From FCB group bacterium (lineage in GTDB: Bacteria; Fidelibacterota; Marinisomatia; Marinisomatales; J089), in the NCBI GenBank assembly GCA_013152835.1, contig JAADFQ010000074.1, forward strand, positions 1-34,763: a DNA stretch of 34,763 bases, in the 5' to 3' direction. Shown here one piece after another: positions 15,012 to 32,753 of the stretch; position 1 is the first letter of the stretch, and each line of letters begins with the position of its first letter. The position numbers and the translations under genes are program-made. Under the pieces are notes generated by a model. That model was not told the DNA's origin. It saw only the letters and a program-made list of their open reading frames with translations, and did not search any database.

Positions 15012-16268
15012 TCAGGATTTTTTCTGCATATTCTTTATTTTAAAGATCAACATAATCACCAGGAACGAAGCGGCCATAATCATAATGAATAAATTGACTC
15101 TTCGCTGGTTATATTCCGCCAAGGCTCCCTGGGCACCTTCCAAGGCATTGGCGGTAGCCTTGAATCCGGGTTCAGCGGTTTTTTGAACCGTAGCGAAATT
15201 AAAACTGTGGATGCTGGTTCGTGTCTGAATCAACGCGCGACGGGAGTCATCCAGATCAGCATACAAATCACTGACTTCCATTCCCAGTTGTTCCGCATGT
15301 TCTATCTTTTTCTGTGCCCGTTCATAGCGCACGGATAAACTGTCGATCACGCTATCCATTTGGGTGGCCAGAATCGCCGCTTTATCACCATGCTGTTCAT
15401 GGCAGGACTGGCAGACAAATTTCTGCGTTCCGACTTTCAGCAAATCATCCGTGGGATGTTGAATCCCATGATTGCCATGGCATTCAATACATTGTTTCGC
15501 GCCCATTTCCAGCATGTCATAGTTCAGGTGACTGGAAATGAAAAGTTTTCGGTTATTTACGTGGCAGGTCCCACAAATGTCGGCGATGGTTACCACATCC
15601 GGCGGCAACGCACCATGGTTTCCATGACAGTCATTACAGGCCGGAGCTCCGATATCATTTTCTTCCAATAGCGCCTTTCCGTGAACGGAAGTCTGATACT
15701 TTTCAAACTGATCCGTCGGGATATTGAATTCTGCCATGTAATCCGCATTTCCGTGGCAGGAATTACAGGTTTCCGGCACGTGCGTCGGATACACCGGTGA
15801 ACGGGGATCATCTTTGGGAAAGATACCGTGGACTCCGTGACAACTGGTACACACGGCCACTTTCGAATTGCCCTCTTTCAGCAATTTACCGTGTTGACTG
15901 GTCCAGTATTGTTGAATTTCATCAGTTCGTACCGAGGCCGTGTACTGGCGCATGAAATTGGGGTCCGTATGACATTTTCCGCAAACGTCCGGCTGATCTT
16001 CCCGGGGGACGGCGCCGATAAATGTATCATTATCCCACATAGCGGCATCGGGATCATCGAAAGCCGTGGGATCGCCGCCGTGACAATCGGCACAGCTCAG
16101 TCCTACCTGCAAATGGATATCCTCATCGATATGCGTCATAATCCGGGCATCTTCATCCCGGTCTTCATCCACCGCTAAATGGCATGCGTAACAGGCATCT
16201 TTCCGGAGAACATCACCGGATAACAAGGTTCCGAAAACCAGGACAGTAATTGTAAGTACATGTTTCAT
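15012..16268 (-). CDS. Nine-heme c-type cytochrome with C-terminal membrane anchor
   Basis: The product is 418 aa, started at ATG 16268 (MKHVLTITVLVFG), which gives a proper signal peptide. The track start 22 codons earlier lies inside cytochrome b. Nine CxxCH motifs are visible: CYACH, CADCH, CGKCH, CTSCH, CNSCH, CNDCH, CGTCH, CIECH and CQSCH. A helical, probably coiled-coil region follows ('VRYERAQKKIEHAEQLG'), then one membrane helix 'LFIMIMAASFLVIMLIFKI' with a basic tail. The ATG overlaps the cytochrome b stop as ATGA, so it is translationally coupled to the Rieske/cytochrome b pair. It probably takes the place of cytochrome c1 or f as electron acceptor of that complex and passes electrons to periplasmic cytochromes. 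Confidence 0.85.
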   Translation of the reverse strand: MKHVLTITVLVFGTLLSGDVLRKDACYACHLAVDEDRDEDARIMTHIDEDIHLQVGLSCADCHGGDPTAFDDPDAAMWDNDTFIGAVPREDQPDVCGKCHTDPNFMRQYTASVRTDEIQQYWTSQHGKLLKEGNSKVAVCTSCHGVHGIFPKDDPRSPVYPTHVPETCNSCHGNADYMAEFNIPTDQFEKYQTSVHGKALLEENDIGAPACNDCHGNHGALPPDVVTIADICGTCHVNNRKLFISSHLNYDMLEMGAKQCIECHGNHGIQHPTDDLLKVGTQKFVCQSCHEQHGDKAAILATQMDSVIDSLSVRYERAQKKIEHAEQLGMEVSDLYADLDDSRRALIQTRTSIHSFNFATVQKTAEPGFKATANALEGAQGALAEYNQRRVNLFIMIMAASFLVIMLIFKIKNMQKKS

Positions 16269-17332
16269 ACCAGGTACCCCCAGACAGTCATGACAATAAT
16301 AAAGGCAACCGCAAAAATACCTACCCGATTCCATTTTTTATCACTGAAATTCGGATCTCCGGCATGTTTATCCAGAAACGGTACCAGCATCCAGATGGCT
16401 CCGCCGATCATAAAGATCAGCACCCCGAACAGTTCCCCTTCCATGAACAGGAAATGGGCCGGGATTTGTTTCAGGGTCTGGAACATGAACATAAAGTACC
16501 ATTCGGGCCTGATTCCGGCGGGAGCCGGCGCCAGCGGATCGGCTTTATTTCCCAGTTCCCAGGGAAAAAACAGGGCTAACAGGGCAATAATGTTGAATAC
16601 GACCAACCAAACCGTCACATCGCGCAACACAAAATTGGGAAAGAAAGGAATGGAACCCCGGCGTTTTTCCGGTTTTTGTTCCAGTTCAGGAGGTACGCTC
16701 ATTCCCTGAAACTGGACCAGCATGAGATGCACTCCGAGAATCAGGATGGCCACCAGCGGTAAAACCGCCACATGAAAACCGTAAAACCGGGTCAGCGTCG
16801 CACCGCTGACTTCATCGCCTGCCCGGAGAAACTTCAGGATAAAATCACCGACGAAAGGTAAGGCACCGGCTATTTCGGTACCGACTCGCGTGGCAAAATA
16901 GGATAATTCATTCCACGGAAGTAAATAGCCCGAAAAGCCGAATCCCAGGGCCACAAATAAAAGGAGCATGCCGGAAAGCCAGGTCATTTCCCGCGGTTTA
17001 CGATAGGCTTTGGCAAAGAATACGGTAAACATATGCAGGAAAATGAACAGGATGAACAGATTGGCCGACCAACTATGCATTTCACGAACCAGCCAGCCAA
17101 AACTCACTTTACTGACAATAAATTTCACACTTTCGTAAGCAGTATTAATTCCCGGCTGATAATAGAAGGTTAACATAATTCCGGTAAATATCTGGATGAT
17201 GAAAAGGAATAAAGCGACACCCCCAAGATAGTACCAGACGGTACCATAGAAAACCGGCACCTCTTTCTTTTTGGCAAATTTCCGAGCCGCTTCCAGACTG
17301 ATGCGCTCGTCAATCCAGTCAATGATCTTCAT
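16265..17332 (-). CDS. Cytochrome b (b6/subunit IV fusion type) of a quinol:cytochrome c oxidoreductase
   Basis: The product is 355 aa with about eight membrane helices. The heme-b ligands are H86, H100, H187 and H202. The 13- and 14-residue spacings, and even the numbering, match plant-type cytochrome b6 rather than mitochondrial cytochrome b. The quinol-site motif PEWY is present ('IRPEWYFMFMF'), so the b6 part and subunit IV part are fused, as in many bacterial enzymes. The residue corresponding to b6 Cys35, which carries the extra heme c, is Tyr (VWYYLGG), so this heme is probably absent. It oxidises menaquinol together with the Rieske protein. The gene starts in a one-base overlap with the Rieske stop. 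Confidence 0.93.
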   Translation of the reverse strand: MKIIDWIDERISLEAARKFAKKKEVPVFYGTVWYYLGGVALFLFIIQIFTGIMLTFYYQPGINTAYESVKFIVSKVSFGWLVREMHSWSANLFILFIFLHMFTVFFAKAYRKPREMTWLSGMLLLFVALGFGFSGYLLPWNELSYFATRVGTEIAGALPFVGDFILKFLRAGDEVSGATLTRFYGFHVAVLPLVAILILGVHLMLVQFQGMSVPPELEQKPEKRRGSIPFFPNFVLRDVTVWLVVFNIIALLALFFPWELGNKADPLAPAPAGIRPEWYFMFMFQTLKQIPAHFLFMEGELFGVLIFMIGGAIWMLVPFLDKHAGDPNFSDKKWNRVGIFAVAFIIVMTVWGYLV

Positions 17333-17796
17333 CAGGCAACTTCTCCCTTCATGACAATCACTTTGTCATTTTGTACCTCGGCGACCATGCGGGTCAAAGG
17401 TCTGGGGGGTGGGCCGGATATATTATTGCCGTTAATGTCGTATTTCCCGTTATGACAGGCACACCAGATAATTCCCGCATCCGGCAAATACTGGACCGTG
17501 CAGTCCAGATGCGTGCAGGTAGCTGTCAGGGCAGTGAATTCACCGTTTTTCTTTCGAATAACAATCACTGGTTTCCGGCCGAAGCGAACAATTTTAGCGG
17601 AATTATTGGGAAATTCCGCGACCAATCCCGCCTCTACCTGATTGACTGAAATATTCGCCACTTTGGGCGGTACCATATATTTTATTAATGGATAAAACAA
17701 GGTTCCCAACCAGGCAATCACGCTTACACCGAGGAGATTGTCTATAAATGTTCTCCTGGATTTAGATTGAACAGGCTTTTCAGTATCTACCATCAT
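17332..17796 (-). CDS. Rieske iron-sulfur protein of a bc/b6f-type complex
   Basis: The product is 154 aa. The N-terminus holds a Tat-like 'SRRTFIDNLLG' and one membrane helix (about residues 21-42). The [2Fe-2S] boxes are CTHLDC (C94, H96, C99) and CACHNG (C112, C114, H115), giving the two-Cys/two-His ligation with a disulfide pair. The missing Pro-Cys-His-Gly consensus (here Ala-Cys-His-Asn-Gly) is a mild variation. The protein moves electrons from menaquinol to the cytochrome c partner. GAGGGGG lies upstream of ATG 17796. It is the first gene of the Rieske, cytochrome b, nine-heme cytochrome operon. Confidence 0.93.
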   Translation of the reverse strand: MMVDTEKPVQSKSRRTFIDNLLGVSVIAWLGTLFYPLIKYMVPPKVANISVNQVEAGLVAEFPNNSAKIVRFGRKPVIVIRKKNGEFTALTATCTHLDCTVQYLPDAGIIWCACHNGKYDINGNNISGPPPRPLTRMVAEVQNDKVIVMKGEVA

Positions 17797-18622: not shown

Positions 18623-19003
18623 TTATTCCTCGGCTAAACTATCCACGACGATCCATTGATAGATGAGGTCATATTGTCGAACATCATTAAGGTAAATGTA
18701 CATGGATCTGATCGATACGTCCGCTGGTTTTAATTTTAATAAGGCAAACGAATTTGCGTCACCGGGAAGAAAATCATCGGAACTGTGAATTGAACTATAG
18801 CTTCGCAAATCCAAATCCTTTATCATCTCATCCACCCCATGACAGCGGATACATTGCCGATCGAAAATAGGCTTTATATGATCCACATAGGTTACCCGGT
18901 CGGGCAAGGATTCCGTCATTGACGAGTTGATATCAACGCAACCGTAAAGAACCAGACTAAAGAGTAACACGGTCCCGATGATTACTGATGACAATAACCG
19001 CAA
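18623..19003 (-). CDS. Monoheme c-type lipoprotein
   Basis: The product is 126 aa if started at TTG 19003, chosen because AAAGGAG lies 6 nt upstream and because it gives a clean lipoprotein signal ('MRLLSSVIIGTV', lipobox LYGC). The track start 23 codons earlier lies inside the 14-heme gene. There is one heme site, CIRCHG, in a context 'HIKPIFDRQCIRCHG' that resembles Planctomycete-type cytochrome c domains. The protein should be an outer-membrane or periplasmic lipoprotein passing single electrons. It overlaps the upstream 14-heme cytochrome gene by 22 bases, so the two are coupled. Confidence 0.75.
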   Translation of the reverse strand: MRLLSSVIIGTVLLFSLVLYGCVDINSSMTESLPDRVTYVDHIKPIFDRQCIRCHGVDEMIKDLDLRSYSSIHSSDDFLPGDANSFALLKLKPADVSIRSMYIYLNDVRQYDLIYQWIVVDSLAEE

Positions 19004-20148
19004 AAGCCCACTCCTTTGGTTGTTTCCGGTTGATGACAGACAAAGCACATAGAGATCGGTTCCGTACACCAATCGCCCTGGGTATCATGCATATAATTCG
19101 GTGCATGTGTTTTGGGATCCGTGTTTTGAACGCCATCGCGATCGGAATGACATTGCACACATAACGGATCGGCTCCCTCTACATCATGACAGGACGCACA
19201 GAGTTCAATGTCCCGACGGGCCATTTCCGCATGGCGGCCTCCGGTGATATTGTCGGCAAAATCAGTATTGTTGCCGTATTTCACTGCCCCCCAGTCGCTG
19301 CCTCCGTGAAAATCGGGTTTATTCAATAACAGGTCATCAGAATTCTGATGGCAGTCCGAACAAAATTCCTGGTATTCGTGACAAACCTGGCAATCCCGCG
19401 CTTTGGTGGTGGCATCCAAACCATGGGTAAATTCGTAATCCAGCGCATGATTCCGTTCCAGTAACAGCTTCCCTTTCATCAGGTCTTTCCGAAAAGACGG
19501 GGCCGGGTTCATCCGGGACAGATCATCCTGACCCAGCCGGGAACCGCTATGGCAATTGTCACAGGTCAGTTGCGTATGACAAAGTTGACAATCAGCCGAT
19601 TCGGAAAGCGCCGCTATATCATGATCCGTAATCCAGGCGGAGGTATGATTTTGGGGTCTCAGAAAAGCCACATTATCATGACAGGCATCGCAATTCTCCG
19701 GGCCCTGTTTTTCCCGATGACAGCTCAGACAATCGGCCATTTTGGGAATCGGCGGACGATTTTCAACATCGGCCATATCGCTGTGGCATTGTTCACAGGT
19801 CAGTTTCTGATCAATATAGTGCAATTTATGGGAAAACTTGAAGCTGCGCGTCACCGGTGCGAAAGTCCGGTACGGTTCATCACCCAAATGGCAGGTTTCG
19901 CATTCGCCATCTTCTTTCCAGGTTTTATGACATTTCATACAGCGCTTTTCCGTAGGCAGAATTCGATCGGCGGAACTTTCGCTGGTTTTCAATACTTTGG
20001 GATTATGGCATTTTGTGCACCGGACGCCAATTTCATTCACGTGCAGGTCATGATTAAAGGTCACCACCAGCGGGCGATCCGTATTCTGAGCCCACAGGGC
20101 CGTTAGTAACAGGCCAAATCCAATTACTCTATCGATCCGAATCCTCAT
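18982..20148 (-). CDS. Periplasmic 14-heme c-type cytochrome (c7/c3-like)
   Basis: The product is 388 aa, with a signal peptide ending near LWAQ (residue 21). Fourteen CxxCH sites are counted, including CTKCH, CMKCH, CETCH, CEQCH, CLSCH, CDACH, CQLCH, CDNCH, CQVCH, CSDCH, CASCH, CVQCH, CFVCH and CGYCH. His-rich 'FNHDLHV' and 'FSHKLHY' supply distal ligands, as in class III cytochromes. It has no membrane anchor, so it is periplasmic or plugs a barrel. The gene starts in an ATGA overlap with the outer-membrane barrel gene. The pairing suggests a porin-cytochrome conduit. It is unlike MtrA (10 hemes) in number and spacing. Confidence 0.9.
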   Translation of the reverse strand: MRIRIDRVIGFGLLLTALWAQNTDRPLVVTFNHDLHVNEIGVRCTKCHNPKVLKTSESSADRILPTEKRCMKCHKTWKEDGECETCHLGDEPYRTFAPVTRSFKFSHKLHYIDQKLTCEQCHSDMADVENRPPIPKMADCLSCHREKQGPENCDACHDNVAFLRPQNHTSAWITDHDIAALSESADCQLCHTQLTCDNCHSGSRLGQDDLSRMNPAPSFRKDLMKGKLLLERNHALDYEFTHGLDATTKARDCQVCHEYQEFCSDCHQNSDDLLLNKPDFHGGSDWGAVKYGNNTDFADNITGGRHAEMARRDIELCASCHDVEGADPLCVQCHSDRDGVQNTDPKTHAPNYMHDTQGDWCTEPISMCFVCHQPETTKGVGFCGYCHQ

Positions 20149-21371
20149 ATTCGCACTCTCAGACCCAGTTGAAAGCGGGTGTCGTTGGTATAGTAGGGAT
20201 TTCGTAACACATGAACTTCACTGCGCAATGTCAAGCGATCGGTCAGCAGGTATTCACCGGTTAGAGATACCGTGGATAAATCGTCCCAATTCCCTTCCAG
20301 CAAACGATAATTCCCGATCGTAGTTCGTGCCGCCAGGGATAATTTCTCCCAGGGTTTGCGGATACCCACTACCAGCCGATTCGAACTCCCACCATAGCCC
20401 TCCTGTCGAATAACATTCACTGCAAAATTAGTATGATTGACGCCAATCGATACTATATCGGCGGATTCACCGGAAAACCACACGTGCCGAAATGAAAACG
20501 AACCCTGAACCCGATCGGTCAATTGATTGCGGCCGCTTAACCGTACTTCACTGGAGGCGGATGAATTGAACACGGAAAAAATGGAATTTTCGGGGATCCG
20601 GGGAGTACGATACTGATATTCCAGCGCCAATGATTGCAGGGGCGTCTGCGATGATCCGCGATAATTACCATGGATCACAAAATCACTGATCGAAAAATCG
20701 TTGGTATAATTACGCATACGTACAAAGGTGGTCCACCTTGATTTCCTGAACGTTCCCTGGACACCCAGTAAACTGCGGAGATTCGGGGAAACTTCCTGGG
20801 GACTTCTTTCTGTTCCGTACGTACGGCTGTGGGCTTTCTGACTCAACCCGGCTTTCAGATCCAGTGCTGAAGTTGCCTTCCAACCCAGTTGCATTCCCCA
20901 GAAATGACTATTGATCGGATCGGATGTCCATCCCGAGGCCGGGACGTAGCCACCGGCAAAGCCAAGCAGGGACATTTTTTTCCGGTTGTAGGTAACCTTG
21001 AGTCCATCCATCCGGGCCACATCCGACACGGCATAAATAAACTGCCGGCCAAGATGAACCTGGAGTTTGCGTTGCATCCAGACCGTCGAATAGACCACAT
21101 TATACATATTGAATACCGGATCCACATCAAAAGCATTGACGGGATCCAGATAAAAAACGCCGGAAATAGTAAGGCGGCTGCCTTTGAGAAGGACATCATT
21201 TCCCCGGATCATAAATGATTCGTATACCCGGACATGGGTCAGCGTGCTGTCCCCCGGGTTCTGTCGGGCAAAGGAATAGGCGCTGGTATTCAGATAGGCA
21301 TTAAAACTGCGGGGACAGGCAACTCCGATCAGCAGGAGTATCCCGGCAATCCGCCAATAGGATCGCAGCAT
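20145..21371 (-). CDS. Outer-membrane beta-barrel protein next to the 14-heme cytochrome
   Basis: The product is 408 aa, started at ATG 21371 (MLRSYWRIAGILLLIG), which gives a proper signal peptide. The body consists of alternating amphipathic strands such as 'KLQVHLGRQFIYAVSDVARMDG', 'SLLGFAGGYVPASG', 'TTFVRMRNYTNDF' and 'RLTLRSEVHVLRNPYY'. The length suits about 16-18 strands, smaller than MtrB/PioB. I see no heme site in it. It begins just after the small membrane protein gene stop and overlaps the next gene by 4 bases. The likely role is to hold a cytochrome across the outer membrane or serve as a channel; this is inferred from context only. Confidence 0.7.
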   Translation of the reverse strand: MLRSYWRIAGILLLIGVACPRSFNAYLNTSAYSFARQNPGDSTLTHVRVYESFMIRGNDVLLKGSRLTISGVFYLDPVNAFDVDPVFNMYNVVYSTVWMQRKLQVHLGRQFIYAVSDVARMDGLKVTYNRKKMSLLGFAGGYVPASGWTSDPINSHFWGMQLGWKATSALDLKAGLSQKAHSRTYGTERSPQEVSPNLRSLLGVQGTFRKSRWTTFVRMRNYTNDFSISDFVIHGNYRGSSQTPLQSLALEYQYRTPRIPENSIFSVFNSSASSEVRLSGRNQLTDRVQGSFSFRHVWFSGESADIVSIGVNHTNFAVNVIRQEGYGGSSNRLVVGIRKPWEKLSLAARTTIGNYRLLEGNWDDLSTVSLTGEYLLTDRLTLRSEVHVLRNPYYTNDTRFQLGLRVRI

Positions 21372-21372
21372 A

Positions 21373-21624
21373 TCAGTCGTGGGGTCTCGCTTTTCGAATT
21401 CCAATAAATACGTAGGTCAGGATACCGGCCAGTAATGTAAAAATCGGCAGTACTACTAAGGATATAATCAGGGTGGCGTTTTGAGCATCGTGGAGATAGC
21501 GGGATAATGAAATCAGATTCAAGATCCAGGTAATCACACTTACGACCATAATCCAGATCAGAGAGATACTGAAGATTTGAAGAAAAAATATTAATCCGGA
21601 CGGGTTCGTCTTTGGTTCAGACAT
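21373..21624 (-). CDS. Small two-helix membrane protein of the ACIII/Qrc-like operon
   Basis: The product is 83 aa from ATG 21624, chosen because AAGGAG is 7 nt upstream; the longer track ORF is a shadow of the NrfD gene. It has two hydrophobic helices, about residues 10-35 and 47-75, linked by 'SRYLHDAQNA', with a basic tail. No family is recognised. Its position directly after the NrfD-like gene suggests a small accessory subunit of the quinone oxidoreductase, comparable in position to the small membrane subunits of alternative complex III. Confidence 0.7.
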   Translation of the reverse strand: MSEPKTNPSGLIFFLQIFSISLIWIMVVSVITWILNLISLSRYLHDAQNATLIISLVVLPIFTLLAGILTYVFIGIRKARPHD

Positions 21625-21626
21625 GA

Positions 21627-22967
21627 TCAGGCTCCTTCCCCGGCTACATCCGTATCCGGCAAATAGGATTCCAAACGTTCTTTTACGGCTTCCAGACCTT
21701 CTGCGCGCCCGTCCTTGATTTCCCAGATGGAAATCAACGGGAATACTTTGGAGAATAAAAGGAACATCATACAAAAGGCGGCAACACCACCGGCAAAAAG
21801 GGACCATTCGGTCAGCGACGGAATATAGGGTTCGCTCACGACCGGCAACCGGGGATTGGATAAAGATGGAACAATAATGATCAACCGTTCCAGCCACATC
21901 CCGATAATTACGGAAAAGGAAGCTACCAGAATGCCGGGTATTTTTTTCAGCTTCTTGAAAGCCAGAATGATCACCGGAATGACAAAATTAAGCAATACCA
22001 TCATCCAGAAGAAGGGTGCATACGCTCCGGAGAACTTGAACTGAATAACCCGCATTTCCATCGGTTCATTCCCGTAAATACCGGTCAGGAATTCACTGAA
22101 CGTGAAATACCCCCAGAGCAGGGCGAAAACCAATAGCAGAACGCTCAAATACTGGAAATGAATTTCCTTCAGATAATTTTCCAGATGATAGAATTTCCTG
22201 AAGAAAATCATCACCACCAGAAGCGTGGCGGTTCCGGAAAAAATAGCGCCGGTGACGAAATAGGGCCCGAAAATGGTGCTGTGCCAACCGGACTGGAGCG
22301 TCATGGAGAAAATGTACGAAATCACCGTATGTACACTGACCGCAACCGGAATGACGACCACCATTAAGATTGACATCGCTCGTTCCAGAACGTGCTTTTG
22401 CCGTTCGGTGCCCACATATCCCCAGCTCAGCCACGTGTATAACTTTTTAAATTTCGTCGTGTGATCCCGGAGTAGGGCAATATCGGGAATCAACGGCACA
22501 TACAAGTAGACCGTACTGGCGGTAAAGTACAGGGAAATGGCGGTAACATCCCACAGGAGCGGTGATTGGAGTCGGCCATAGAAGAAAACATTCAGTACCC
22601 GGTCAGGGCGACCCAAATCGATAATCGGATGCAAACCGCCGATTGCCAGAACGATGGCTGTAATGACTTCCGCCATCCGGGTAATCGGTCGGCGCCACTC
22701 TGCCTGAGATAAACGCAGGATGGCCGAAATCAAGGTCCCGGCATGACTGACACCGATAAAGAACACGAAATTGATGATATAAAAGCCCCATGTGACGGTC
22801 CGATTTAATCCGGTCACGCCCAATCCGTAAACCAGTTGCCGGATGTACATGACAATGGCCCATACAACAACGGCCCCTAAAAAACCAATTGCCCAGTAAA
22901 ACCGTCGATCACTTTCCAGAATCGGCCGATACAGTGTATAATCCGGATCTTTGCGCAACGCATCCAT
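21627..22967 (-). CDS. NrfD/ActC-like polytopic quinone-binding subunit
   Basis: The product is 446 aa with about ten membrane helices, the length of ActC/ActF and QrcD-type proteins rather than the short 8-helix NrfD. Recognisable regions are 'WGFYIINFVFFIGVSHAGTLISAILRL', the conserved 'HPIIDLGRPDRVLNVFFY', 'ERAMSILMVVVIPVAVSVHTVISYIFSM' and a final helix before a soluble tail. It binds quinone in the inner membrane and exchanges electrons with the ferredoxin subunit; some members are proposed to move protons. The start overlaps the ferredoxin stop by one base (TAATG). Confidence 0.9.
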   Translation of the reverse strand: MDALRKDPDYTLYRPILESDRRFYWAIGFLGAVVVWAIVMYIRQLVYGLGVTGLNRTVTWGFYIINFVFFIGVSHAGTLISAILRLSQAEWRRPITRMAEVITAIVLAIGGLHPIIDLGRPDRVLNVFFYGRLQSPLLWDVTAISLYFTASTVYLYVPLIPDIALLRDHTTKFKKLYTWLSWGYVGTERQKHVLERAMSILMVVVIPVAVSVHTVISYIFSMTLQSGWHSTIFGPYFVTGAIFSGTATLLVVMIFFRKFYHLENYLKEIHFQYLSVLLLVFALLWGYFTFSEFLTGIYGNEPMEMRVIQFKFSGAYAPFFWMMVLLNFVIPVIILAFKKLKKIPGILVASFSVIIGMWLERLIIIVPSLSNPRLPVVSEPYIPSLTEWSLFAGGVAAFCMMFLLFSKVFPLISIWEIKDGRAEGLEAVKERLESYLPDTDVAGEGA

Positions 22968-23653
22968 TATTTATCTTCCTTTTTAAGATAATAAACTTTC
23001 GGATCAGTTCCCAATTCCTCGTCCAGACGAAACGCCCGACTGGAATGGATCAGTGTGGCCACCCGGTGGTCCGGATTTTCCAGATCACCAAAGGTCATGG
23101 CGTCGGCCGGACAGGATTCCACACAGGCCGGTTGGAAATCTTCTTCCCTCAATTCCCGGTTTTCGAATCGGGCCAAATCCTTGGCCAGGGAAAGCCGATG
23201 ATGGCAGAAACTGCATTTTTCAACCACACCTTTCATTCGGCGGGTCACATCCGGATTGCGGATCCCTTCGTAAGATTCGGGAATATCCGGTTCAAAATAG
23301 TTGAATTTCTTCGCCGAATACGGACAGGCAGCCATACAAAACCGGCAGCCGATACACCGGTAATACACCTGCCCGACCAATCCTTCCTCATTTAAAAAGG
23401 TGGCATGCACCGGACATACTTTTGTACACGGCGGATTGTCGCACTGAAAACACGGTCGCGGAATATGGGTAACCCGGACATCCGGATATTCGCCTTCATA
23501 TTCGGTCACGATTTGCATCCAGTCCAGGGCGCGTCCCTTTTGCGCTTCTTCTTCGCCAACATTGGGTATGTTGTTTTCAATGCGACAGGCATTGACGCAG
23601 GCGCCGCATCCCGTGCATTTATTTAAATCAATTACCATTCCCCATTTAGTCAT
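22967..23653 (-). CDS. Four-cluster ferredoxin subunit (ActB2/QrcC/PsrB-like)
   Basis: The product is 228 aa. Four iron-sulfur cluster motifs are visible: CTGCGACVNAC near residue 15, CFQCDNPPCTKVCP near 68, CIGCRFCMAACP near 100, and CSFCHH plus a C-terminal CVESCP. This is the classic DmsB/PsrB arrangement. It carries electrons between the molybdopterin-family protein and the NrfD-like subunit. In alternative complex III this part is fused to the C-terminus of ActB; here it is separate, as in Qrc and in complex iron-sulfur molybdoenzymes. It starts 3 nt after the upstream stop and has no signal sequence, so it is probably exported with its Tat partner. Confidence 0.92.
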   Translation of the reverse strand: MTKWGMVIDLNKCTGCGACVNACRIENNIPNVGEEEAQKGRALDWMQIVTEYEGEYPDVRVTHIPRPCFQCDNPPCTKVCPVHATFLNEEGLVGQVYYRCIGCRFCMAACPYSAKKFNYFEPDIPESYEGIRNPDVTRRMKGVVEKCSFCHHRLSLAKDLARFENRELREEDFQPACVESCPADAMTFGDLENPDHRVATLIHSSRAFRLDEELGTDPKVYYLKKEDK

Positions 23654-23656
23654 GAT

Positions 23657-26074
23657 CTATCCTATCGTAATCCGTACTGGAGTTCCTGACAAAATAATAT
23701 TCCCCCGGTTTACTTCCGGTTGAGCGACAATCAACTCCCGCGGATCAGTCCCGACCCCTGAGGTAAATCGCCCGACCCCTTCACGTCCCAGTCCCAGGGG
23801 TATAAAGACCACATCGGGATGGATAATCGGACGCACCCGCGCCCGGACCTTGATAACACCGACCGGCGAATCCAATTGAATTTTTGTTCCGTCGCGTACA
23901 CCCATTTTCCGGGCTGTCTCTGGATGGATTTCAACCCAGTTTTCCCAGTGAATTTCCCGCAGATGACCGAAAGTTTCCACGAGGGTCGGAGAATAGACCG
24001 TCCGTCCATACGGATTGGTAATGGGATATCCGGTCATAAGCGTTAATGGATATCCTGCCGAATCAGAAGCCGTGTATTTTTCCATTTCAGTCGGATATCG
24101 GGAACCGGTCATCATTTTGATGCTTTGCACCTCATCCCGGGCGGACCCGTCATAGGATTTCAACAGAGGTGACATGAAATCAAAACGTTTTACCGAACCG
24201 TTCAATACCTGGCTAAACGGAGTACTGGTTCTACCGGCCGGATCCCACCAGCCGCCGACTTTGAGCAAGGCTTTCAGGAAAGTACGTTCCGCCGTGGTGA
24301 TGGACACCGGTTCATGGTCCATGTACATCCGGGCCCAGTCTTCCTTGGTTTGCTCAGCATACAATAGTCCCTTCTTGTCGGAATAAATCTTCTGCAATCG
24401 CTTTTTCACTACCGTTTTGGCATTTTTCCCCGGAAAGATTCGGGGTTCGATCCCCGGCAGGGAAGCTGCTACCGTTTTCAGGATATCATAACTGCTTTTC
24501 GTATCATACATGGGATCCAAGACGGGGCGCTGCAAGGTAGCGGAAGCAACCGGAACACCGGGAATATCTTCTACAAGGTCCCAATCCTCTAAAGGAGAAT
24601 GGGTCGGAAGCAGAACATCGGCATGGGCGCTGGTTTCATTGGGTAAATCACCGATAAACACGACGCGTGGTACATGTTTCAGCAGGGTTTTCCACTTGGT
24701 TCGGTTCTCTCCGTAATAGACCGGATTTGCACGATTAATGATAATGAGTTCAATGGAATAGGGCGCATATCCTTCCACCCGTTTGGCAAATATATCCAAA
24801 GATGGTTTTTCCAGGGGATGAGCTTCGTTGGTCTTAAAGAGATTTTGAACATCTTTCCCTTTGAATTCCTGTCGAAAGAGTTTTTCCCCTTGGCTGGAAA
24901 AATCAAAATACCATCCGCCGGGTTGCTGCACTGCTCCCAGCATGTAATTCAGACAGTGGGCGGCCCAGGAATGAAAATCACCGCGAGGCGACTGCTGGGC
25001 TTCGCTTCCGCTAAGGATAACCGGCTTGTCGCGTTCGATAATCAGATTTGCCAAATCTACGATATCTTCTTCCGGAATGCCGGTAATTTCCTCCACTCGT
25101 TTGGGATGAAATTCAGAGCGCACCAGTTTCTCAAAGCCCTCGTGGGTTCGGCCCTGGGCATCCTTCCAGTCACCGAATCCATGACTGTTCTTACGCAGGT
25201 GTCCCAGATCCACTTTTGGTGAATCCATCAGTAAATGAGCCAATCCCAGAGCCAGGGCACCCCAGGTATCGGGATTCAAGGGAATCCAGCGGTGAGAACT
25301 GGCGGCAGTGATATTGGCCCGGGGTCCCACGTAAACCAGTTTATTCCGGGTTACGTTGGACAAATCTTTAAACTGACTTATGACCTGGTTGAAGTGTACG
25401 GACGCCCCGTCCTCTTCCAGAAAATTGGCGCCTAAGCTGATAATACAATCGGCATTGATGATGTCGAAGGTCGGTTCCAAATCCACGCCCTGGGTAAGGC
25501 GAGCGGAATTGGACCCGTAACTGACATGGGATTCCTGATAATAATTCGGTGTTCCCAGCCAGTTAGCAAAATTCCGCCAGATTTCCTGCATTACCGGGGA
25601 ATCATCCCCGTTGATAATGGCAATTTTATAGGTTTGATTACGGGTGATCAGATCCTGGATATTCCGGCTCAGTGATCCCAACGCCTCATCCCAGGAAACC
25701 GGAAGCAATTCTTTTTGAATCGGTCCTTCCGGTCGGGCCATGGGAATGGTCAAACGATCCGGATGATACAGTATTTCCAGATTGGCATAGGTTGCCGGGC
25801 AGGTTCCGCCACGGTTAATCGGCGATAAGGTATTGCCTTTTAAACTAATCGGGACTTCATTTAACCGTTTTATCGACAAGCTGCAGCCGCCGGGACACAG
25901 ACGACAGGCGGTATTTTTCCAGGTAATTGTCCCTTCCCCCCGGCGTAATTGTTGAATGGTTTTTTCCGACAGCCCCAGAACCTGGGGGAATGCGGCGGAA
26001 GCCACGATGCCACCGGTAGCAACACCGGTGATTTTCAGGAAATCACGCCGACTTAGAAATTTTTTATCAAACAT
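23657..26074 (-). CDS. Tat-exported molybdopterin oxidoreductase-family protein (ActB1/QrcB-like)
   Basis: The product is 805 aa. The Tat signal is 'LSRRDFLKITGVATGG' at residues 7-22. A [4Fe-4S] motif C57-x2-C60-x3-C64-x27-C92 (CRLCPGGC...GGTCP) follows. Then come the molybdopterin domains ('PVILSGSEAQQSPRG', 'NETSAHADVLLPTHSPLEDWD') and a C-terminal dinucleotide-binding domain ('WVEIHPETARKMGVRDG'). Where many relatives carry the Mo ligand (a Cys or Sec before a Ser/Ala-rich helix) the sequence reads 'SHVSYGSNSARL', without Cys. This is compatible with a cofactor-free subunit as in ActB and QrcB. It overlaps the pentaheme gene by 8 bases. A true reductase (polysulfide, tetrathionate or arsenic type) is the alternative. 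Confidence 0.88.
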   Translation of the reverse strand: MFDKKFLSRRDFLKITGVATGGIVASAAFPQVLGLSEKTIQQLRRGEGTITWKNTACRLCPGGCSLSIKRLNEVPISLKGNTLSPINRGGTCPATYANLEILYHPDRLTIPMARPEGPIQKELLPVSWDEALGSLSRNIQDLITRNQTYKIAIINGDDSPVMQEIWRNFANWLGTPNYYQESHVSYGSNSARLTQGVDLEPTFDIINADCIISLGANFLEEDGASVHFNQVISQFKDLSNVTRNKLVYVGPRANITAASSHRWIPLNPDTWGALALGLAHLLMDSPKVDLGHLRKNSHGFGDWKDAQGRTHEGFEKLVRSEFHPKRVEEITGIPEEDIVDLANLIIERDKPVILSGSEAQQSPRGDFHSWAAHCLNYMLGAVQQPGGWYFDFSSQGEKLFRQEFKGKDVQNLFKTNEAHPLEKPSLDIFAKRVEGYAPYSIELIIINRANPVYYGENRTKWKTLLKHVPRVVFIGDLPNETSAHADVLLPTHSPLEDWDLVEDIPGVPVASATLQRPVLDPMYDTKSSYDILKTVAASLPGIEPRIFPGKNAKTVVKKRLQKIYSDKKGLLYAEQTKEDWARMYMDHEPVSITTAERTFLKALLKVGGWWDPAGRTSTPFSQVLNGSVKRFDFMSPLLKSYDGSARDEVQSIKMMTGSRYPTEMEKYTASDSAGYPLTLMTGYPITNPYGRTVYSPTLVETFGHLREIHWENWVEIHPETARKMGVRDGTKIQLDSPVGVIKVRARVRPIIHPDVVFIPLGLGREGVGRFTSGVGTDPRELIVAQPEVNRGNIILSGTPVRITIG

Positions 26075-26573
26075 GGCAGGTCAGACAATCGTTAGATATG
26101 GATTTTTGGTCATGGCAGTTCATACAGCGCTTCATTTGAATGGGAACCAATTGATGATCTGCCGGTTTGGTCAATTTTTCAACGTCTCCATGACAATCAG
26201 AACAGGGTATTTTTCCGGAGGTAACATGGCGGCGATGGGAAAAAAATACATGCTCCGGTAACGTATAAATCCGGTTCCATGGAATCTCTTCCTTATTGGT
26301 TACCGCCTCCACGACCTTGGCTTCTTCCTTGCTTTCACCCTGCATTTCCGAGTGGCAGGTCTGACACCGTTTTATGGAGGGCAAAGTAGCCTGAATCTTG
26401 GTCTCCGCTCCCACATGACAATCGGTGCAATAGAGACCCGCTTCCGATACATGAATCGAATGATTATAGGCAATTGGCTGGGTAATTTTTTCTGTGGAGT
26501 TACAACCGTAAAGCCCCAGTATAATCGCTGCAAAAAGCAGTTCTTTACGGCCGAAAAATCCTGTTTGTTTCAA
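26067..26573 (-). CDS. Pentaheme c-type lipoprotein (ActA/QrcA-like)
   Basis: The product is 168 aa from TTG 26573, preferred because GAGG lies about 10 nt upstream; TTG 26582 is also possible. The signal peptide ends in lipobox LYGC. Five CxxCH sites are seen: CTDCH, CQTCH, CSDCH, CMNCH and CLTCH. Class III-type distal His patterns are 'NHSIHVSEAG' and 'FSHRRHV'. Five hemes match ActA of alternative complex III (QrcA has six). It is the periplasmic electron port of the quinone oxidoreductase encoded by the next four genes and is cotranscribed with them. Confidence 0.87.
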   Translation of the reverse strand: MKQTGFFGRKELLFAAIILGLYGCNSTEKITQPIAYNHSIHVSEAGLYCTDCHVGAETKIQATLPSIKRCQTCHSEMQGESKEEAKVVEAVTNKEEIPWNRIYTLPEHVFFSHRRHVTSGKIPCSDCHGDVEKLTKPADHQLVPIQMKRCMNCHDQKSISNDCLTCHV

Positions 26574-26575
26574 TG

Positions 26576-27157
26576 TTACCAATCCTCATCTTCCTCTTCG
26601 TCGCCGGTATCACAGGTGTAATCGGGATTTTTATGATGTTCTATTTTAGGATAATAAACAGCGTAATCGAAAGGTTTGTATTTTGGACTTTCTTCGTTGT
26701 GACAGGTTAGGCAGTCTTTCGACGTCGGCAGGATTAATCCGTTTGCTTTAGCGGTTTCCACATCACACATAATATCCTGCTGCCGATATTTTTCCCCGGG
26801 ACCATGACAACTTTCGCATTGGATGCCTTTGGTCTTGTCAAATTTTTTCCCAAATTCCGCACCATCGACATTGTACCCGGTGACATGGCATTTTAAACAT
26901 TCCGGTGCTTCATTAGCCGGTGTTTTCAAACCACGTTCTTTCACTATTTTCGCCGCCTCTTCGCCCAGCAGCGTTTCATAAGCCTTGGCGTGGGCGGTTC
27001 CCGACCAAACGGCGTATTGATTACCCATTTCAGCGGTTTCATGGCAGACCTTGCAGCGGTCCACTCCTACGTAGGCATGTGTTGTCTCCCCCTCTCCCTC
27101 AGAACCATATAGGAAGGCAAATAAAATTGTTAGGATAGATACTATGGTTCTTGGCAT
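26576..27157 (-). CDS. Tetraheme cytochrome c554-like protein
   Basis: The product is 193 aa, with a signal peptide ending near LYGSEG. Four CxxCH sites are seen: CKVCH, CLKCH, CESCH and CLTCH. The arrangement 'YVGVDRCKVCH...WSGTAHAKAYETL...CLKCHVTGYN...GIQCESCHGPG' is the c554 family layout known from many electron-shuttling cytochromes. The C-terminus is very acidic (GDEEEDEDW), possibly a docking surface. AGGAG lies 7 nt before the ATG. It is the first gene of the ACIII/Qrc-like operon and is likely its soluble periplasmic electron partner. Confidence 0.9.
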   Translation of the reverse strand: MPRTIVSILTILFAFLYGSEGEGETTHAYVGVDRCKVCHETAEMGNQYAVWSGTAHAKAYETLLGEEAAKIVKERGLKTPANEAPECLKCHVTGYNVDGAEFGKKFDKTKGIQCESCHGPGEKYRQQDIMCDVETAKANGLILPTSKDCLTCHNEESPKYKPFDYAVYYPKIEHHKNPDYTCDTGDEEEDEDW

Positions 27158-27724: not shown

Positions 27725-27757
27725 AAAAAAGCCCCGGATTTCAGTAAAATCCGGGGC
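27725..27757 (-). terminator. Rho-independent terminator of the 16-heme cytochrome gene
   Basis: The 11-bp stem GCCCCGGATTT/AAATCCGGGGC with a 5-base loop is followed on the minus strand by six T. It lies 22 bases after the gene's stop codon. Confidence 0.85.
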
Positions 27758-27779
27758 TTTCAGCAACGATAGAATCGAT

Positions 27780-30536
27780 TTATTTCAGTAGGACCATTTT
27801 CACCTGATGAACTTCATTACCGGTGTTCATCCGGGCGAAATAGAGTCCCGCTGGGGCTGCTTGTCCGGAATCCATGCGGCCATTCCAGGTTATCTGGTGA
27901 TGTCCGGGAGTCATGGATTCAGCAATTAATGTCCGTACCTTGTTGCCCAGTAAGTCGAAGACTTCGAGGGTAACGTTGGTGGTCACGGGAACATCAAAAG
28001 TCAGCGTGGTTACCGGATTAAACGGATTCGGATAATTCTGCTTCAGAGCAAACGCTGTGGGCAGTTCCGTCTCATCACCGGTACTGACGGTACCGTGCAT
28101 GGTGGCCGCTTCTTCGGCAGCTTCCGCCAAGGTCATATCCGGGATGCTGTCGGCCGGATCATCATTATGGCAACTCATGCAGGAATAGGCCGGAGACAGG
28201 CTGGCCGGACGAGTATCGTCATCCCGCACAGCGCCGCCATCATCCGTAAACATGGATAATGTATCAGGTGCAATCCTGAAGATATGCGACCGTACATCGC
28301 CCTTGTACCCGCTCTGACCGCGAGTCGTGCCGGATTTTGCCGCGTAGGGCATATGGCATTCCACACATTCCTGGGTGCCCTGATGCGTCAAATTCGCTAC
28401 CTGCGCCGGGTGACACGTGGAGCATTCCATTTTGATCCCCTGACCATCCCAGAGAACCCGCTTATGCGGATCGTGACAAGTGGTGCAATTCAGACCGGCA
28501 TCATCGTGCGGACTGGCGGAGAATTCATCCCATTGTTCATGATGGCGAATGAATCCACCGGAGGCATTTATCGGATCAGTATAACTCCGGTTATGGCAGG
28601 TTCCGCAAAGGAAATTCACATCGTCACCACTTGCATCAGGAGTAATGACAACACCATCTTTTTCCAATCCACCCAGACTATTATCCAAATGGGCGAACTC
28701 ATAAACGCGGTCAATATAGGCCGGATTTCCGGTCTGTACATGATTGCTACCCGGTCCATGACAGGCTTCACAGCCAATGCCACCTTCGGTGAATGTGCCG
28801 AGCCCATCCACTCCCGTAAGCCAGGTTCCGGTGGTATCGCCGCCTGTTGTATGACACTTAAAACAACTGTAGTTGTAGATTTTCGTATCACCGGTATGGT
28901 AATCCGCCCAGCCATAGTCCACGCCATCGTAGAAGTTGAACTGATTATGGCCCGCGCCCGGATCAACGGCTGCCGTTCCGGTACCAACGATTTGTCCATC
29001 GGTTCCGACGAACCGAGCCTTCCAGCCGAATCCGCCGATCACACCGGCAATTTCGGACCAACTGTGATTCCCATTCCCAAGATCGGTCAGCCAATTATCT
29101 TCAAAATTGGTAACAAAATCGGGATATGTCGGAGCCGTGGCATTTTCAATAACATTGAATTTATAGGGATGTCCGGAATTATTCCATTCATCCACAATAT
29201 TATATCCAAGGTTGCTGTTAACTTCGTTATGACAGGCCGCACAGGTTTCCGAGCCGACAAAGGTGGGATCGTCGGCGGGAGTGGCAACATGCATATTCTG
29301 TGCCGTATTCACAACCTGTTCAAGCGTCATGTCCGGAATCCCGTCTGCGGGGTCATCGTTATGACAACCCAGGCAGGAATACGCCGGAGACAATGAGGCC
29401 TGGCGAGTTGCATCATCCCGGACGGCTGAACCATCATCCGTGAACATGGATTCCGCATTCGGTGTAATCTTCCATAAGTGAGAACGTACATCGCCCTTAT
29501 AGCCGCTTTCGCCGCGGGTCGTTCCGGACTTGGCCGCATAGGGCATATGACATTCAATACAGGTCTGCGTTCCTGCGTGGTTGATGGTCGTATTTTCTGT
29601 CGGATGGCAGGTGGAACATTCCATGGTAATACCGTCACCGTCCCATAAAACCCGTTTGTGGGGATTATGGCAGGAGGTGCATTTCAGTCCTGCGCCAAAG
29701 TGATCCGAAGCTACAAATTCATCCCACTGTTCGTGGTGTCGGATGAATCCCCCGCTCGCATTAATGGGATCCGTATAGCTCCTGTTGTGGCAGGTACCGC
29801 AGAGAAAGTTCACGTCATTTCCGCTGGGATCCGGTGTTATTACCGAACCGTCGATTTCCAATCCGCCGGATGCGTTATCCAGATGAGCAAATTCGTACAC
29901 CCGGTCAATATTGCTGGTGGACGGGCTGGAAACATGATCGCTTCCCGGGCCATGACAGGCTTCGCAACCAATGCCGCCTTCATTAAAGGTACCCAATCCA
30001 TCCACACCGGTAAGCCAGGTGCCGGTTGTATCGCCACCCGTCGTATGACACTTAAAACAACTGTAGTTGTAGATTTTTGTGTCACCGGTATGATAGTCAG
30101 CCCAGCCGTAATCCACACCGCCATAAAAATTGAACTGATTATGGCCCGCACCCGGATCAACGGCTGCCGTCCCGGTACCAACGATTTGACCGTCAGTTCC
30201 GACGAAACGGGCTTTCCAGCCGAATCCACCGATAACACCGGCAATTTCGGACCAGCTATGATTCCCATTCCCCAGTTCCGTCATCCAGTTATCTTCAAAG
30301 TTTACCACGAAATCCGGGTATGTCGGTGCCGTGGCATTTTCTATAACTGAAAACTTATAGGGATGTCCAGAGTTTGTCCAGGAATCATAGATGTTGTATC
30401 CCACTCCGGTAACATCAGCGGTACCATGACAGGCCTGACAGGCTGCGGAACCAACGTATGTCTGTCCCCATCCCATCCCGGTCAACAGTAAAACTGATAA
30501 CACCATTGCGGATGTTTTTCTTATCTTTTTATTCAT
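27780..30536 (-). CDS. 16-heme c-type cytochrome with T9SS sorting domain (tandem octaheme)
   Basis: The product is 918 aa. The signal peptide ends near GWGQ (residue 25). Two about 400-residue units follow, each with eight CxxCH sites in the same order. Unit 1 has CQACH, CFKCH, CEACH, CGTCH, CTSCH, CSTCH, CIECH and CLGCH; unit 2 has CAACH, CFKCH, CEACH, CGTCH, CTTCH, CSTCH, CVECH and CMSCH. The units share long identical stretches ('DYGWADYHTGDTKIYNYSCF'). The last 90 residues are a Por/type IX sorting domain with 'LKQNYPNPFNPVTTLTF', ending KMVLLK. Sixteen hemes plus type IX export predict a surface or extracellular electron-transfer protein. AGGAGGAAGGA precedes the ATG. It is monocistronic, with a terminator at 27725-27757, and divergent from a two-component system. 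Confidence 0.93.
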   Translation of the reverse strand: MNKKIRKTSAMVLSVLLLTGMGWGQTYVGSAACQACHGTADVTGVGYNIYDSWTNSGHPYKFSVIENATAPTYPDFVVNFEDNWMTELGNGNHSWSEIAGVIGGFGWKARFVGTDGQIVGTGTAAVDPGAGHNQFNFYGGVDYGWADYHTGDTKIYNYSCFKCHTTGGDTTGTWLTGVDGLGTFNEGGIGCEACHGPGSDHVSSPSTSNIDRVYEFAHLDNASGGLEIDGSVITPDPSGNDVNFLCGTCHNRSYTDPINASGGFIRHHEQWDEFVASDHFGAGLKCTSCHNPHKRVLWDGDGITMECSTCHPTENTTINHAGTQTCIECHMPYAAKSGTTRGESGYKGDVRSHLWKITPNAESMFTDDGSAVRDDATRQASLSPAYSCLGCHNDDPADGIPDMTLEQVVNTAQNMHVATPADDPTFVGSETCAACHNEVNSNLGYNIVDEWNNSGHPYKFNVIENATAPTYPDFVTNFEDNWLTDLGNGNHSWSEIAGVIGGFGWKARFVGTDGQIVGTGTAAVDPGAGHNQFNFYDGVDYGWADYHTGDTKIYNYSCFKCHTTGGDTTGTWLTGVDGLGTFTEGGIGCEACHGPGSNHVQTGNPAYIDRVYEFAHLDNSLGGLEKDGVVITPDASGDDVNFLCGTCHNRSYTDPINASGGFIRHHEQWDEFSASPHDDAGLNCTTCHDPHKRVLWDGQGIKMECSTCHPAQVANLTHQGTQECVECHMPYAAKSGTTRGQSGYKGDVRSHIFRIAPDTLSMFTDDGGAVRDDDTRPASLSPAYSCMSCHNDDPADSIPDMTLAEAAEEAATMHGTVSTGDETELPTAFALKQNYPNPFNPVTTLTFDVPVTTNVTLEVFDLLGNKVRTLIAESMTPGHHQITWNGRMDSGQAAPAGLYFARMNTGNEVHQVKMVLLK
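28085..30461 (-). repeat. Tandem internal duplication in the 16-heme cytochrome gene
   Basis: Two about 1.2 kb units, roughly 30461-29263 and 29262-28085, code for the two octaheme modules. DNA identity is high in parts (for example ATTATGGCCCGC and GGATCAACGGCTGCCGT occur in both), while the ends of the units differ more. This points to a fairly recent duplication or ongoing gene conversion. Confidence 0.85.
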
Positions 30537-30691
30537 TCCTTCCTCCTAGTAAAGTAATGAAATCATTAAAACGGACCTTTTTATCCGAATAATGTGTGGG
30601 ATATTATTAAGATTGTATTAAAATCTGCTTAGAAAATCATTAAAGTTTTCTAATTTTACAGTCAATAACCACCATGTACAGGAGGCCCATA
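30537..30691. promoter_or_regulatory. Divergent promoter region: 16-heme cytochrome / two-component system
   Basis: The 155-base AT-rich gap between divergent start codons must hold both promoters. Good ribosome-binding sites lie at both ends (AGGAGGAAGGA on the minus strand, AGGAGG on the plus strand). No unambiguous direct repeat for the OmpR-type regulator was recognised by eye. Confidence 0.5.
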
Positions 30692-31366
30692 ATGAGAATC
30701 CTCGTTGTGGAAGATGAACCGGCAATCGGGAGCTACATTCAGGATTGTTTTGTGGAACGAGGTTATAGTGTGGACTGGGTGACCACCTGCGAACAGGCCC
30801 TGGAAACGGCCGTTGTTGAGGACTATGACAGCATTATTCTGGACCGGAGATTACCGGATAAAGACGGCTTATTTGTTTGCAGTGAATTGCGCAGTCAGGG
30901 AATCACCGTACCGATCCTGGTACTGACGGCACTTTCCGGTATCGATCAGCGTGTGGAAGGGTTGAACGTTGGCGCCGACGATTATTTACTGAAGCCCTTT
31001 GCCATGGATGAACTGGTGGCACGCGTTCAAGCTCTGATTCGTCGTTCCTCCTATCGGAATCAACCGAATTTGACCATCCGGAATATTTCGTTGAATTCCC
31101 TCAACCGAAACGTGACGGTTAACGGGGAACAAATCCCACTTTCCAACCGGGAATTTTTACTATTGGAATATCTGATGCGACATGCGGATCAAGCGCTAAC
31201 CCGTTCGCAAATACTGGAACATGTCTGGGAAACACAACGGGATTCCGATACCAATATCGTCGACGTGTACATCAACTATTTGCGGAAAAAGATCGATGTT
31301 CCACAGAAAACTTCCAATATTGAAACCGTCCGCGGATTCGGGTATCGATTTCGGTATGAAGACTGA
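30692..31366 (+). CDS. OmpR/PhoB-type response regulator
   Basis: The product is 224 aa from ATG 30692 (MRILVVEDEP), chosen over the track start because AGGAGG lies 6 nt upstream. The receiver domain has acidic pocket E7/D8, phosphoacceptor D51 ('IILDRRLPDKDG'), T79 and K101 ('LLKPF'). The C-terminal winged helix has 'LSNREFLLLEYLMRHADQALTRSQILEHVW' and 'VDVYINYLRKKI', typical of OmpR/CusR-like regulators. It should be phosphorylated by the kinase encoded next, whose ATG lies inside its last codons. The divergent 16-heme cytochrome gene is the obvious candidate target. Confidence 0.94.
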   Translation: MRILVVEDEPAIGSYIQDCFVERGYSVDWVTTCEQALETAVVEDYDSIILDRRLPDKDGLFVCSELRSQGITVPILVLTALSGIDQRVEGLNVGADDYLLKPFAMDELVARVQALIRRSSYRNQPNLTIRNISLNSLNRNVTVNGEQIPLSNREFLLLEYLMRHADQALTRSQILEHVWETQRDSDTNIVDVYINYLRKKIDVPQKTSNIETVRGFGYRFRYED

Positions 31367-32753
31367 ACTCAGTCTGCAACGCCGGATCACGCTCTGGTCC
31401 ACGCTGGTTGTATCGCTGATTTTCATCGTGTTCATCGTTCTGGTGATTCTGGCCCTGGATAATCAGCTAAAATGGGACTTGGATCATCGAATTGACGAAG
31501 AAGCGAACGCCGTGGAACTTTCGATATTCCACACCGATTCAGGTATTTCCATTGATGAATCCATTGAATGGCGCGAACCTCATCATCAGGATATGGATGA
31601 TGAGTCCATGGTTCTTATGATCCTGAACGAAAACCTCCATTTAATTCGTCGCTCACCCAATTTCCCGTTTTCTCCCGAATTAATCCAATCCTTTGTCTTT
31701 GACCCGACCGACTCCAATTATTATACCCGATCGTTTATGGACCTGGAAATGCGCTTTTTGGTTAAACCAATTCCTTTTGCGAATCAGACTCTGGTATGGA
31801 TTATTGTTGGCAAATCATTCAACTCGATCCATCAAATTCTTAAAGAAGTATTCACCATTTTTCTTTTTTCCTTCCCGGTAGCCTTGATTATGGTGTATTG
31901 GGGTAGTTTATTTTTAGCACGAAAATCTTTGCGACCGGTTCGGGCCATATCTGAAAAAGCACGCCAATTCAAATCCTCGAATCTGTCCCAGCGACTCCCG
32001 GTTCCCCGTACCGATGATGACATTGCACACCTTGCGATTACCTTAAATGAATTGCTGGATCGATTGGAAACAACCGTGGTCAGCTTACGGAACATAGCTG
32101 CGAATGCTTCCCATGAGATAAAAACACCGGTCACTATTCTGTATACCTACCTGGACCGCTGGGCGCAGACCCATCCCGATATGGATACCCATGAAATTCT
32201 GTCCTTTCGGAGCGAATTAAACCGCATCACGAAAATCATTGATAATTTGTCACAAATCGCAAAAACCGATTCCGGAGCAGCCAAATTACAATTTGATACG
32301 GTGTGGATGAATGACCTGCTGTATGAAGAAATTGAACGCTTCCGACCCCAGGCGCTGATGAAGGATATTACCATTCAGGTCAAACCGCTTCCTTCCGTAG
32401 CCATTGAAGGGGACGAATCATGGCTCCACCTGGCCCTGGGAAATCTGATCGAAAACGCCCTGAAATATTCCCCGGAACATTCCTCCATTTCCTTGAAAAT
32501 GGAATCCACCGATGCTCACACACTTATGGTGACCATCTCCGATGAAGGCCACGGTGTCCCGGAGCAAGATTTAGAACTACTGACGGCCCGGTATTTCCGC
32601 AGTAAACAGTCCCGGCCCGGAACCGGTCTGGGACTTGCAATCGCCCATTGGGTCGTGCAACAACATCATGGAAAACTGCGGTTTGCCAATAATCCTACCG
32701 GAGGGCTCACGGTTCAGGTCTGCCTTCCGGAACAATATAATCCCGGTACATAA
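31356..32753 (+). CDS. Membrane sensor histidine kinase
   Basis: The product is 465 aa from ATG 31356 (MKTELSLQRR), which overlaps the regulator stop by 11 bases; the track start lies within the regulator gene. Helix 1 is 'WSTLVVSLIFIVFIVLVILAL', then comes a periplasmic sensor of about 130 residues without a recognised fold, then helix 2 'IFLFSFPVALIMVYWGSLFLA'. A HAMP-like linker ('RPVRAISEKARQFKSSNLSQRL') is followed by the HisKA box 'NASHEIKTPVTIL', the N-box 'NLIENALKYSPE' and G-boxes 'DEGHGVPE' and 'GTGLGLAIAHW'. The periplasmic loop contains His-His and acidic clusters ('EPHHQDMDDES') that could bind metal, but this is inference. It is paired with the upstream regulator. Confidence 0.93.
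   Translation: MKTELSLQRRITLWSTLVVSLIFIVFIVLVILALDNQLKWDLDHRIDEEANAVELSIFHTDSGISIDESIEWREPHHQDMDDESMVLMILNENLHLIRRSPNFPFSPELIQSFVFDPTDSNYYTRSFMDLEMRFLVKPIPFANQTLVWIIVGKSFNSIHQILKEVFTIFLFSFPVALIMVYWGSLFLARKSLRPVRAISEKARQFKSSNLSQRLPVPRTDDDIAHLAITLNELLDRLETTVVSLRNIAANASHEIKTPVTILYTYLDRWAQTHPDMDTHEILSFRSELNRITKIIDNLSQIAKTDSGAAKLQFDTVWMNDLLYEEIERFRPQALMKDITIQVKPLPSVAIEGDESWLHLALGNLIENALKYSPEHSSISLKMESTDAHTLMVTISDEGHGVPEQDLELLTARYFRSKQSRPGTGLGLAIAHWVVQQHHGKLRFANNPTGGLTVQVCLPEQYNPGT

Follow-up and report, generated by a model that had tools for sequence, protein, structure and literature searches.

The window analysed here, the whole stretch of 34,763 nucleotides, lies on contig 74 of a draft genome (2.61 Mb, 88% complete) that we searched by profile and whose host is taken to belong to the Fidelibacterota (Marinimicrobia). 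On its minus strand, an open reading frame for a protein of 918 amino acids starts with ATG and occupies exactly positions 27780-30536. The gene, its parts and the signals that flank it are as follows.

27780..30536, minus strand: 16-heme cytochrome gene (signal peptide, two octaheme modules and a predicted T9SS type A tail)
30542..30547, minus strand: Shine-Dalgarno site AGGAGG, from the sequence
30462..30536, minus strand: Sec signal peptide, residues 1-25, MNKKIRKTSAMVLSVLLLTGMGWGQ, judged by eye, without a lipobox Cys
29265..30461, minus strand: octaheme module 1, with 8 CXXCH motifs within residues 33-388
28068..29264, minus strand: octaheme module 2, with 8 CXXCH motifs within residues 432-786
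27783..28067, minus strand: predicted T9SS type A C-terminal domain with a FlgD-like Ig fold, from TIGR04183, FlgD_ig and fold matches
27730..27759, minus strand: intrinsic terminator hairpin followed by a T run on this strand, from the sequence

We find that the protein contains 16 CXXCH motifs, eight in each 399-residue module, that their order is identical in the two modules and that all eight motifs of a module are plain CXXCH. Sixteen heme motifs in this order, conserved in related modules, are far beyond chance; together with the Sec signal and a cytochrome c maturation system I (CcmB, CcmC, CcmF and CcmH) in the same genome, they identify a c-type multiheme cytochrome. The first-pass annotation had described a 16-heme protein of two octaheme modules and a type IX secretion system (T9SS) sorting domain, and the motif count and a match to TIGR04183 above its cut-off agree with this description. 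The gene is probably transcribed alone, since it has its own Shine-Dalgarno site and the terminator hairpin at 27730-27759, and because of this terminator it does not share a transcript with the neighbouring quinone-linked, Qrc-like operon. Membership of that operon is ruled out by the terminator and the approximately 620 bp between them.

Profile and fold matches assign the tail to the type A T9SS sorting domains. With TIGR04183 (cut-off 23), the C-terminal 95 residues alone reach 39.3 bits and the full-length protein 33.2 bits, while FlgD_ig is matched in the tail at 35.1 (cut-off 27) and Pfam Por_Secre_tail on the 918-residue protein at 24.6 in one search and 29.7 in another (cut-off 27). 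The tail is the sole confident part of an AlphaFold2 model and resembles FlgD, 8glk_D (a chain of the T9SS NucA substrate complex) and PorU (6za2). Among the aligned family tails, 24 of 24 match TIGR04183 at E ≤ 0.01. The low Por_Secre_tail score in one search (24.6 of 27), and the fact that FlgD Ig domains are the best fold matches of the tail, would also fit a FlgD-like Ig domain that plays no part in secretion, on a periplasmic electron store or carrier, as would the lack of a match for PorL and PorM with the GldL and GldM models in this 88%-complete genome, models that were silent in every control genome too. We consider such a periplasmic protein improbable: TIGR04183 is clearly over its cut-off, the Por-tail model has 67 matches in the genome, and SprA (794 bits for its joined parts, against a cut-off of 200), 12 PorV-family proteins above cut-off and PorU (485 bits, cut-off 420) are all encoded there. 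The T9SS and ccm genes that the first-pass annotation had proposed to look for are thus both present, as SprA, PorV and PorU and as CcmB/C/F/H. In 60 of the 67 Por-tail regions, examined by their longest frame, we find two multiheme cytochromes besides the 918-residue protein, with nine hemes each, on contigs 217 and 229 (L142 8560-11259 and L097), so that T9SS tags on cytochromes are no one-off in this genome. Both of these tagged nonaheme cytochromes give MtrC-domain matches.

A scan with one genome per species was used to find relatives. Close relatives occur in genomes named by their depositors as Neomarinimicrobiota/Marinimicrobia, as groups of Bacteroidota, as Chlorobiota and as Calditrichota, and all of them come from MAGs; a more remote relative is present in a MAG of Planctomycetota. 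Two of the depositors' "Chlorobiota" names conflict with other entries, as L016 belongs to the same order as L019 ("Bacteroidetes") and L025 is almost identical to L022 ("Bacteroidetes"); we therefore count only Fidelibacterota, Bacteroidota and Calditrichota as sure. The distribution is patchy, with the octaheme protein in 17 of 245 genomes of Fidelibacterota and in 5 of 393 genomes of the order to which L019's genome belongs. Most members are proteins of approximately 505 residues with one octaheme module, as in L016, and the same type of tail; two modules (16 hemes) are present in L009 and L010 and three (24 hemes) in L013. In L011, with two modules, and L026, with one, a further seven-heme region precedes the tail, and in L031 a separate seven-heme protein with its own tail lies beside the octaheme protein. 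L147, which covers the same place as L031, encodes a T9SS-tagged protein with 9 hemes, similar in length to the tagged nonaheme cytochromes of contigs 217 and 229, next to two tailed cytochromes. Members without a tail, L027 and L032 (Bacteroidales) and L073-L075 (a divergent branch in Fidelibacterota), are predicted lipoproteins in which acidic residues follow the Cys, a feature that fits surface lipoproteins carrying the export signals of Bacteroidota; the Planctomycetota copy, L037, is likewise tail-less and lipoprotein-like. Two further loci were noted: in L145 (175-10642, Neomarinimicrobiota) a cluster of 4-, 17-, 17- and 11-heme cytochromes lies beside a 15-heme T9SS-tagged protein, and in L141 (6049-8952) two c554-like tetraheme parts are joined, in one frame of 968 residues, to beta-propeller-like repeats and to a C-terminal part that adds two CXXCH motifs.

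A SprA match is found in 25 of the 26 carrier genomes tested, that is in all 25 FCB carriers, in 24 of them over cut-off; L015's genome has a SprA fragment only, and the Planctomycetota genome is the sole one of the 26 in which SprA was not found. This co-occurrence of tail and SprA, which further argues against a periplasmic protein, is what T9SS routing predicts, and as judged from these matches it separates one genome, since the FCB carriers of lipoprotein forms also have SprA. The type A tail, the SprA, PorV and PorU genes and SprA in every FCB carrier tested thus support, at the level of sequence, the type IX routing of the 16-heme protein put forward in the first-pass annotation.

The same annotation had called the two modules near-identical and had read them as a recent increase in wire length, and neither statement holds for this protein. 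Protein identity between module 1 and module 2 is 79-81% and DNA identity 73-77%, and the synonymous sites are saturated (pS 0.72, dS about 2.5) with dN at 0.16 and dN/dS at 0.06, values that rule out a recent duplication. An assembly artefact is unlikely, as approximately one base in four differs between the modules and as L009 and L010 show the two-module form again, with a tail of the same kind. A recent event is found instead in L009 (10070-12430), where the two octaheme modules are 95% identical with dS 0.08, which points to a recent module doubling or to gene conversion. In a module tree, the two modules of the 918-residue protein group as sisters (100/98), and so do those of L009 and those of L011 (100/99 each); because the modules of one protein pair in this way, doubling, or homogenisation, took place separately in several lineages. 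The doubling in the 918-residue protein thus appears from the tree and the substitution counts to be lineage-specific and not recent, with gene conversion between the modules a possible alternative to an old, separate doubling.

Nine His residues outside the heme motifs are invariant or nearly so in each module through to the Planctomycetota member (H58, H201, H267, H268, H279, H293, H320, H353 and H416 in module 1, with H279 replaced in one row). Nine suffice in number for bis-His ligation of all eight hemes, which is therefore possible, and bis-His ligation throughout would favour electron transfer over catalysis by an enzyme with an open heme. A heme-free stretch of approximately 120 residues between hemes 1 and 2 is strongly conserved (GVIGG.GWK.RF and others) and, from its sequence, suggests a functional pocket more than a segment of a wire. 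AlphaFold2 prediction of the tandem modules (mean pLDDT 49.7, pTM 0.32) is too poor for heme spacing.

This pocket-like stretch, which precedes heme 2, bears on the main rival to a conducting protein, a surface octaheme enzyme related to MccA, OTR or HAO in which two catalytic units in tandem carry out small-molecule redox chemistry. The octaheme sulfite reductase MccA (PDB 4rkm) is the best PDB profile match of the module (E 2e-9) and is colinear with it at hemes 1, 3 and 5-7, in local matches only (40 bits), and the heme at about the position of heme 2 is the open one in cytochrome c554 and in MccA. Against an enzyme stand the exclusively plain CXXCH motifs, conserved His residues enough for an all-bis-His protein, and the tandem copies and seven-heme fusions of L011 and L026, which fit conduction more simply. 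In addition, none of the curated octaheme enzyme families of NCBIfam is over cut-off for the module of the 918-residue protein; within the family, TIGR04315 is reached by one of 32 modules (E 6e-4). We therefore judge the enzyme to be unlikely, if still the alternative to be taken most seriously. The module matches general Pfam heme domains, with no specific NCBIfam cytochrome family over cut-off, and on these profiles the 918-residue protein is placed in no functional family. Matches to Shewanella proteins were set aside as weak (22-27%) similarity to other multiheme cytochromes; two that were read are ten-heme proteins.

The genes on either side of the cytochrome gene are as follows.

31221..32753, plus strand: sensor histidine kinase, from the sequence by eye; translation probably starts downstream of the listed start codon
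30674..31366, plus strand: OmpR-type response regulator, the divergent neighbour, from Pfam
26576..27157, minus strand: tetraheme cytochrome c554-like protein (PF13435, 74 bits)
26067..26582, minus strand: pentaheme QrcA-like cytochrome (NF041781, 89.7 bits, below the cut-off of 180)
23657..26074, minus strand: QrcB-like molybdopterin-fold subunit (258.8 bits, below the equivalog cut-off of 440)
22967..23653, minus strand: QrcC-like Fe-S subunit (NF041782, 299.5 bits, below the cut-off of 400)
21627..22967, minus strand: NrfD-type quinone-handling membrane subunit (PF03916)
20145..21404, minus strand: candidate outer-membrane beta-barrel (P0002, 419 residues), adjoining the 14-heme cytochrome (amphipathic-beta z 4.4)
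18982..20148, minus strand: 14-heme cytochrome, presumably located in the periplasm or inside the barrel (14 CXXCH motifs; synteny with the barrel)

A response regulator also lies divergently beside the cytochrome gene in L009, L015 and L035, and downstream of it in L010, and in all four loci a homolog of the sensor histidine kinase adjoins it; because this flanking two-component system recurs, regulated expression of the cytochrome gene is suggested. The barrel candidate at 20145..21404 has no Pfam or PDB match, its amphipathic-beta signal (z 4.4) was obtained on 8 homologs, and a single-sequence structure model of it reaches a pLDDT of 30. The barrel and 14-heme genes are adjacent in 8 of 9 relative loci, the ninth being cut off by the contig or a short locus; across these loci the NrfD protein is 78-83% identical where in reach and the barrel only 34-45%. 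Together with L154-L162, the region 18623-22967 (minus strand) defines a conserved Fidelibacterota block of NrfD, beta-barrel-like protein, 14-heme cytochrome and monoheme protein. This block occurs in genomes that have the octaheme protein as well as in genomes that lack it, and it may be a porin-cytochrome conduit, possibly of a new kind, between the quinone pool and the outer membrane. At octaheme loci in other phyla the barrel/14-heme block is not nearby and the quinone-linked operon is not kept next door. Elsewhere in the window, at 15012-17796 (minus strand), a Rieske protein, a cytochrome b and a nine-heme cytochrome are encoded consecutively and make up a bc-type complex, which may pass electrons to a multiheme acceptor.

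We consider it probable, with some reserve, that the 918-residue protein would be exported by Sec, receive its 16 c-type hemes in the periplasm from Ccm system I, and then be carried across the outer membrane by the T9SS in a heme-loaded and folded state via its C-terminal domain, to be anchored on or near the cell surface. There the octaheme modules, probably with two His per heme, would connect the cell electrically with something outside it, whether a mineral, a partner cell or a soluble electron acceptor or donor; added modules would give a longer or higher-capacity chain, and the neighbouring quinone-linked and barrel/14-heme genes may provide the inner part of the electron path. Electron transfer, the role suggested in the first-pass annotation, is supported as the likeliest one. 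The pocket-like stretch between hemes 1 and 2, the transcript separate from that of the quinone-linked operon and the absence of this operon beside the gene in other phyla count against an electron-transfer wire. High heme content and a surface tag are all that favour a surface store of heme or iron, or an adhesin with structural hemes; to our knowledge neither a surface heme store nor a structural-heme adhesin of this kind has been described, and the strict conservation of the possible ligands and of motif order, with many redox genes nearby, makes either very hard to credit. Going beyond the single protein, we tentatively propose that FCB bacteria have a modular surface wire that can be extended covalently, in which octaheme units would be added repeatedly by tandem duplication (8, 16 or 24 hemes) and shown on the surface via the T9SS or as lipoproteins, independently of type II secretion; this is a possibility that we hold with less confidence than the export and electron-transfer steps above.

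Most work on electron exchange with the outside concerns bacteria whose surface cytochromes are lipoproteins or leave the cell by type II secretion. If the proposed pathway is correct, a type IX route would give a large part of marine and sediment microbes a plausible means of external electron exchange, and it would be established that the T9SS can translocate a heme-loaded protein. Proteins with one, two and three modules before the same tail occur naturally, and with this series one can test directly how chain length affects electron transfer. The sequences provide good support for T9SS-tagged multiheme cytochromes as a real example of a surface-cytochrome kind, in a modular family across FCB phyla, and suggest a little-described way of placing electron carriers on the cell surface.

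Compared with known systems, the family module shares its eight hemes with MccA and, unlike it, has only CXXCH motifs, conserves nine residues that may serve as ligands, and occurs in tandem and with a T9SS tail. MtrC and OmcA of Shewanella are likewise multiheme surface cytochromes; they are lipoproteins exported by type II secretion. The Pfam domain MtrC/MtrF II-IV matches 25 of 32 family modules, and chain 6qvm aligns with the module over hemes 2-6. MtrC and OmcA differ from the 918-residue protein in heme number and order, and no cut-off of the OmcA/MtrC family is reached: TIGR03507 is absent among the matches of the full protein and its modules, and the signal peptide lacks a lipobox Cys. 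With the OmcS, OmcE and OmcZ wires of Geobacter the presumed common role is extracellular conduction via stacked bis-His hemes; none so named occurs among the PDB matches of the module profile up to E 5, and, unlike in those wires, chain length here would depend on how many modules are joined covalently. Reviews of the T9SS from 2017 (PMC5445135) and of its effectors from 2023 (PMC10202324) do not mention cytochromes, and in the open-access literature, a scope outside which most subscription papers and all bioRxiv preprints fall, we found no paper linking multiheme or c-type cytochromes with type IX secretion, which is weak evidence of novelty. With T9SS type A cargo such as the gingipains and NucA, the protein has in common a signal peptide and a YPNP...G.Y...K(M/L)VLxK tail with a FlgD-like Ig fold; it differs from them in that the passenger is a multiheme cytochrome.
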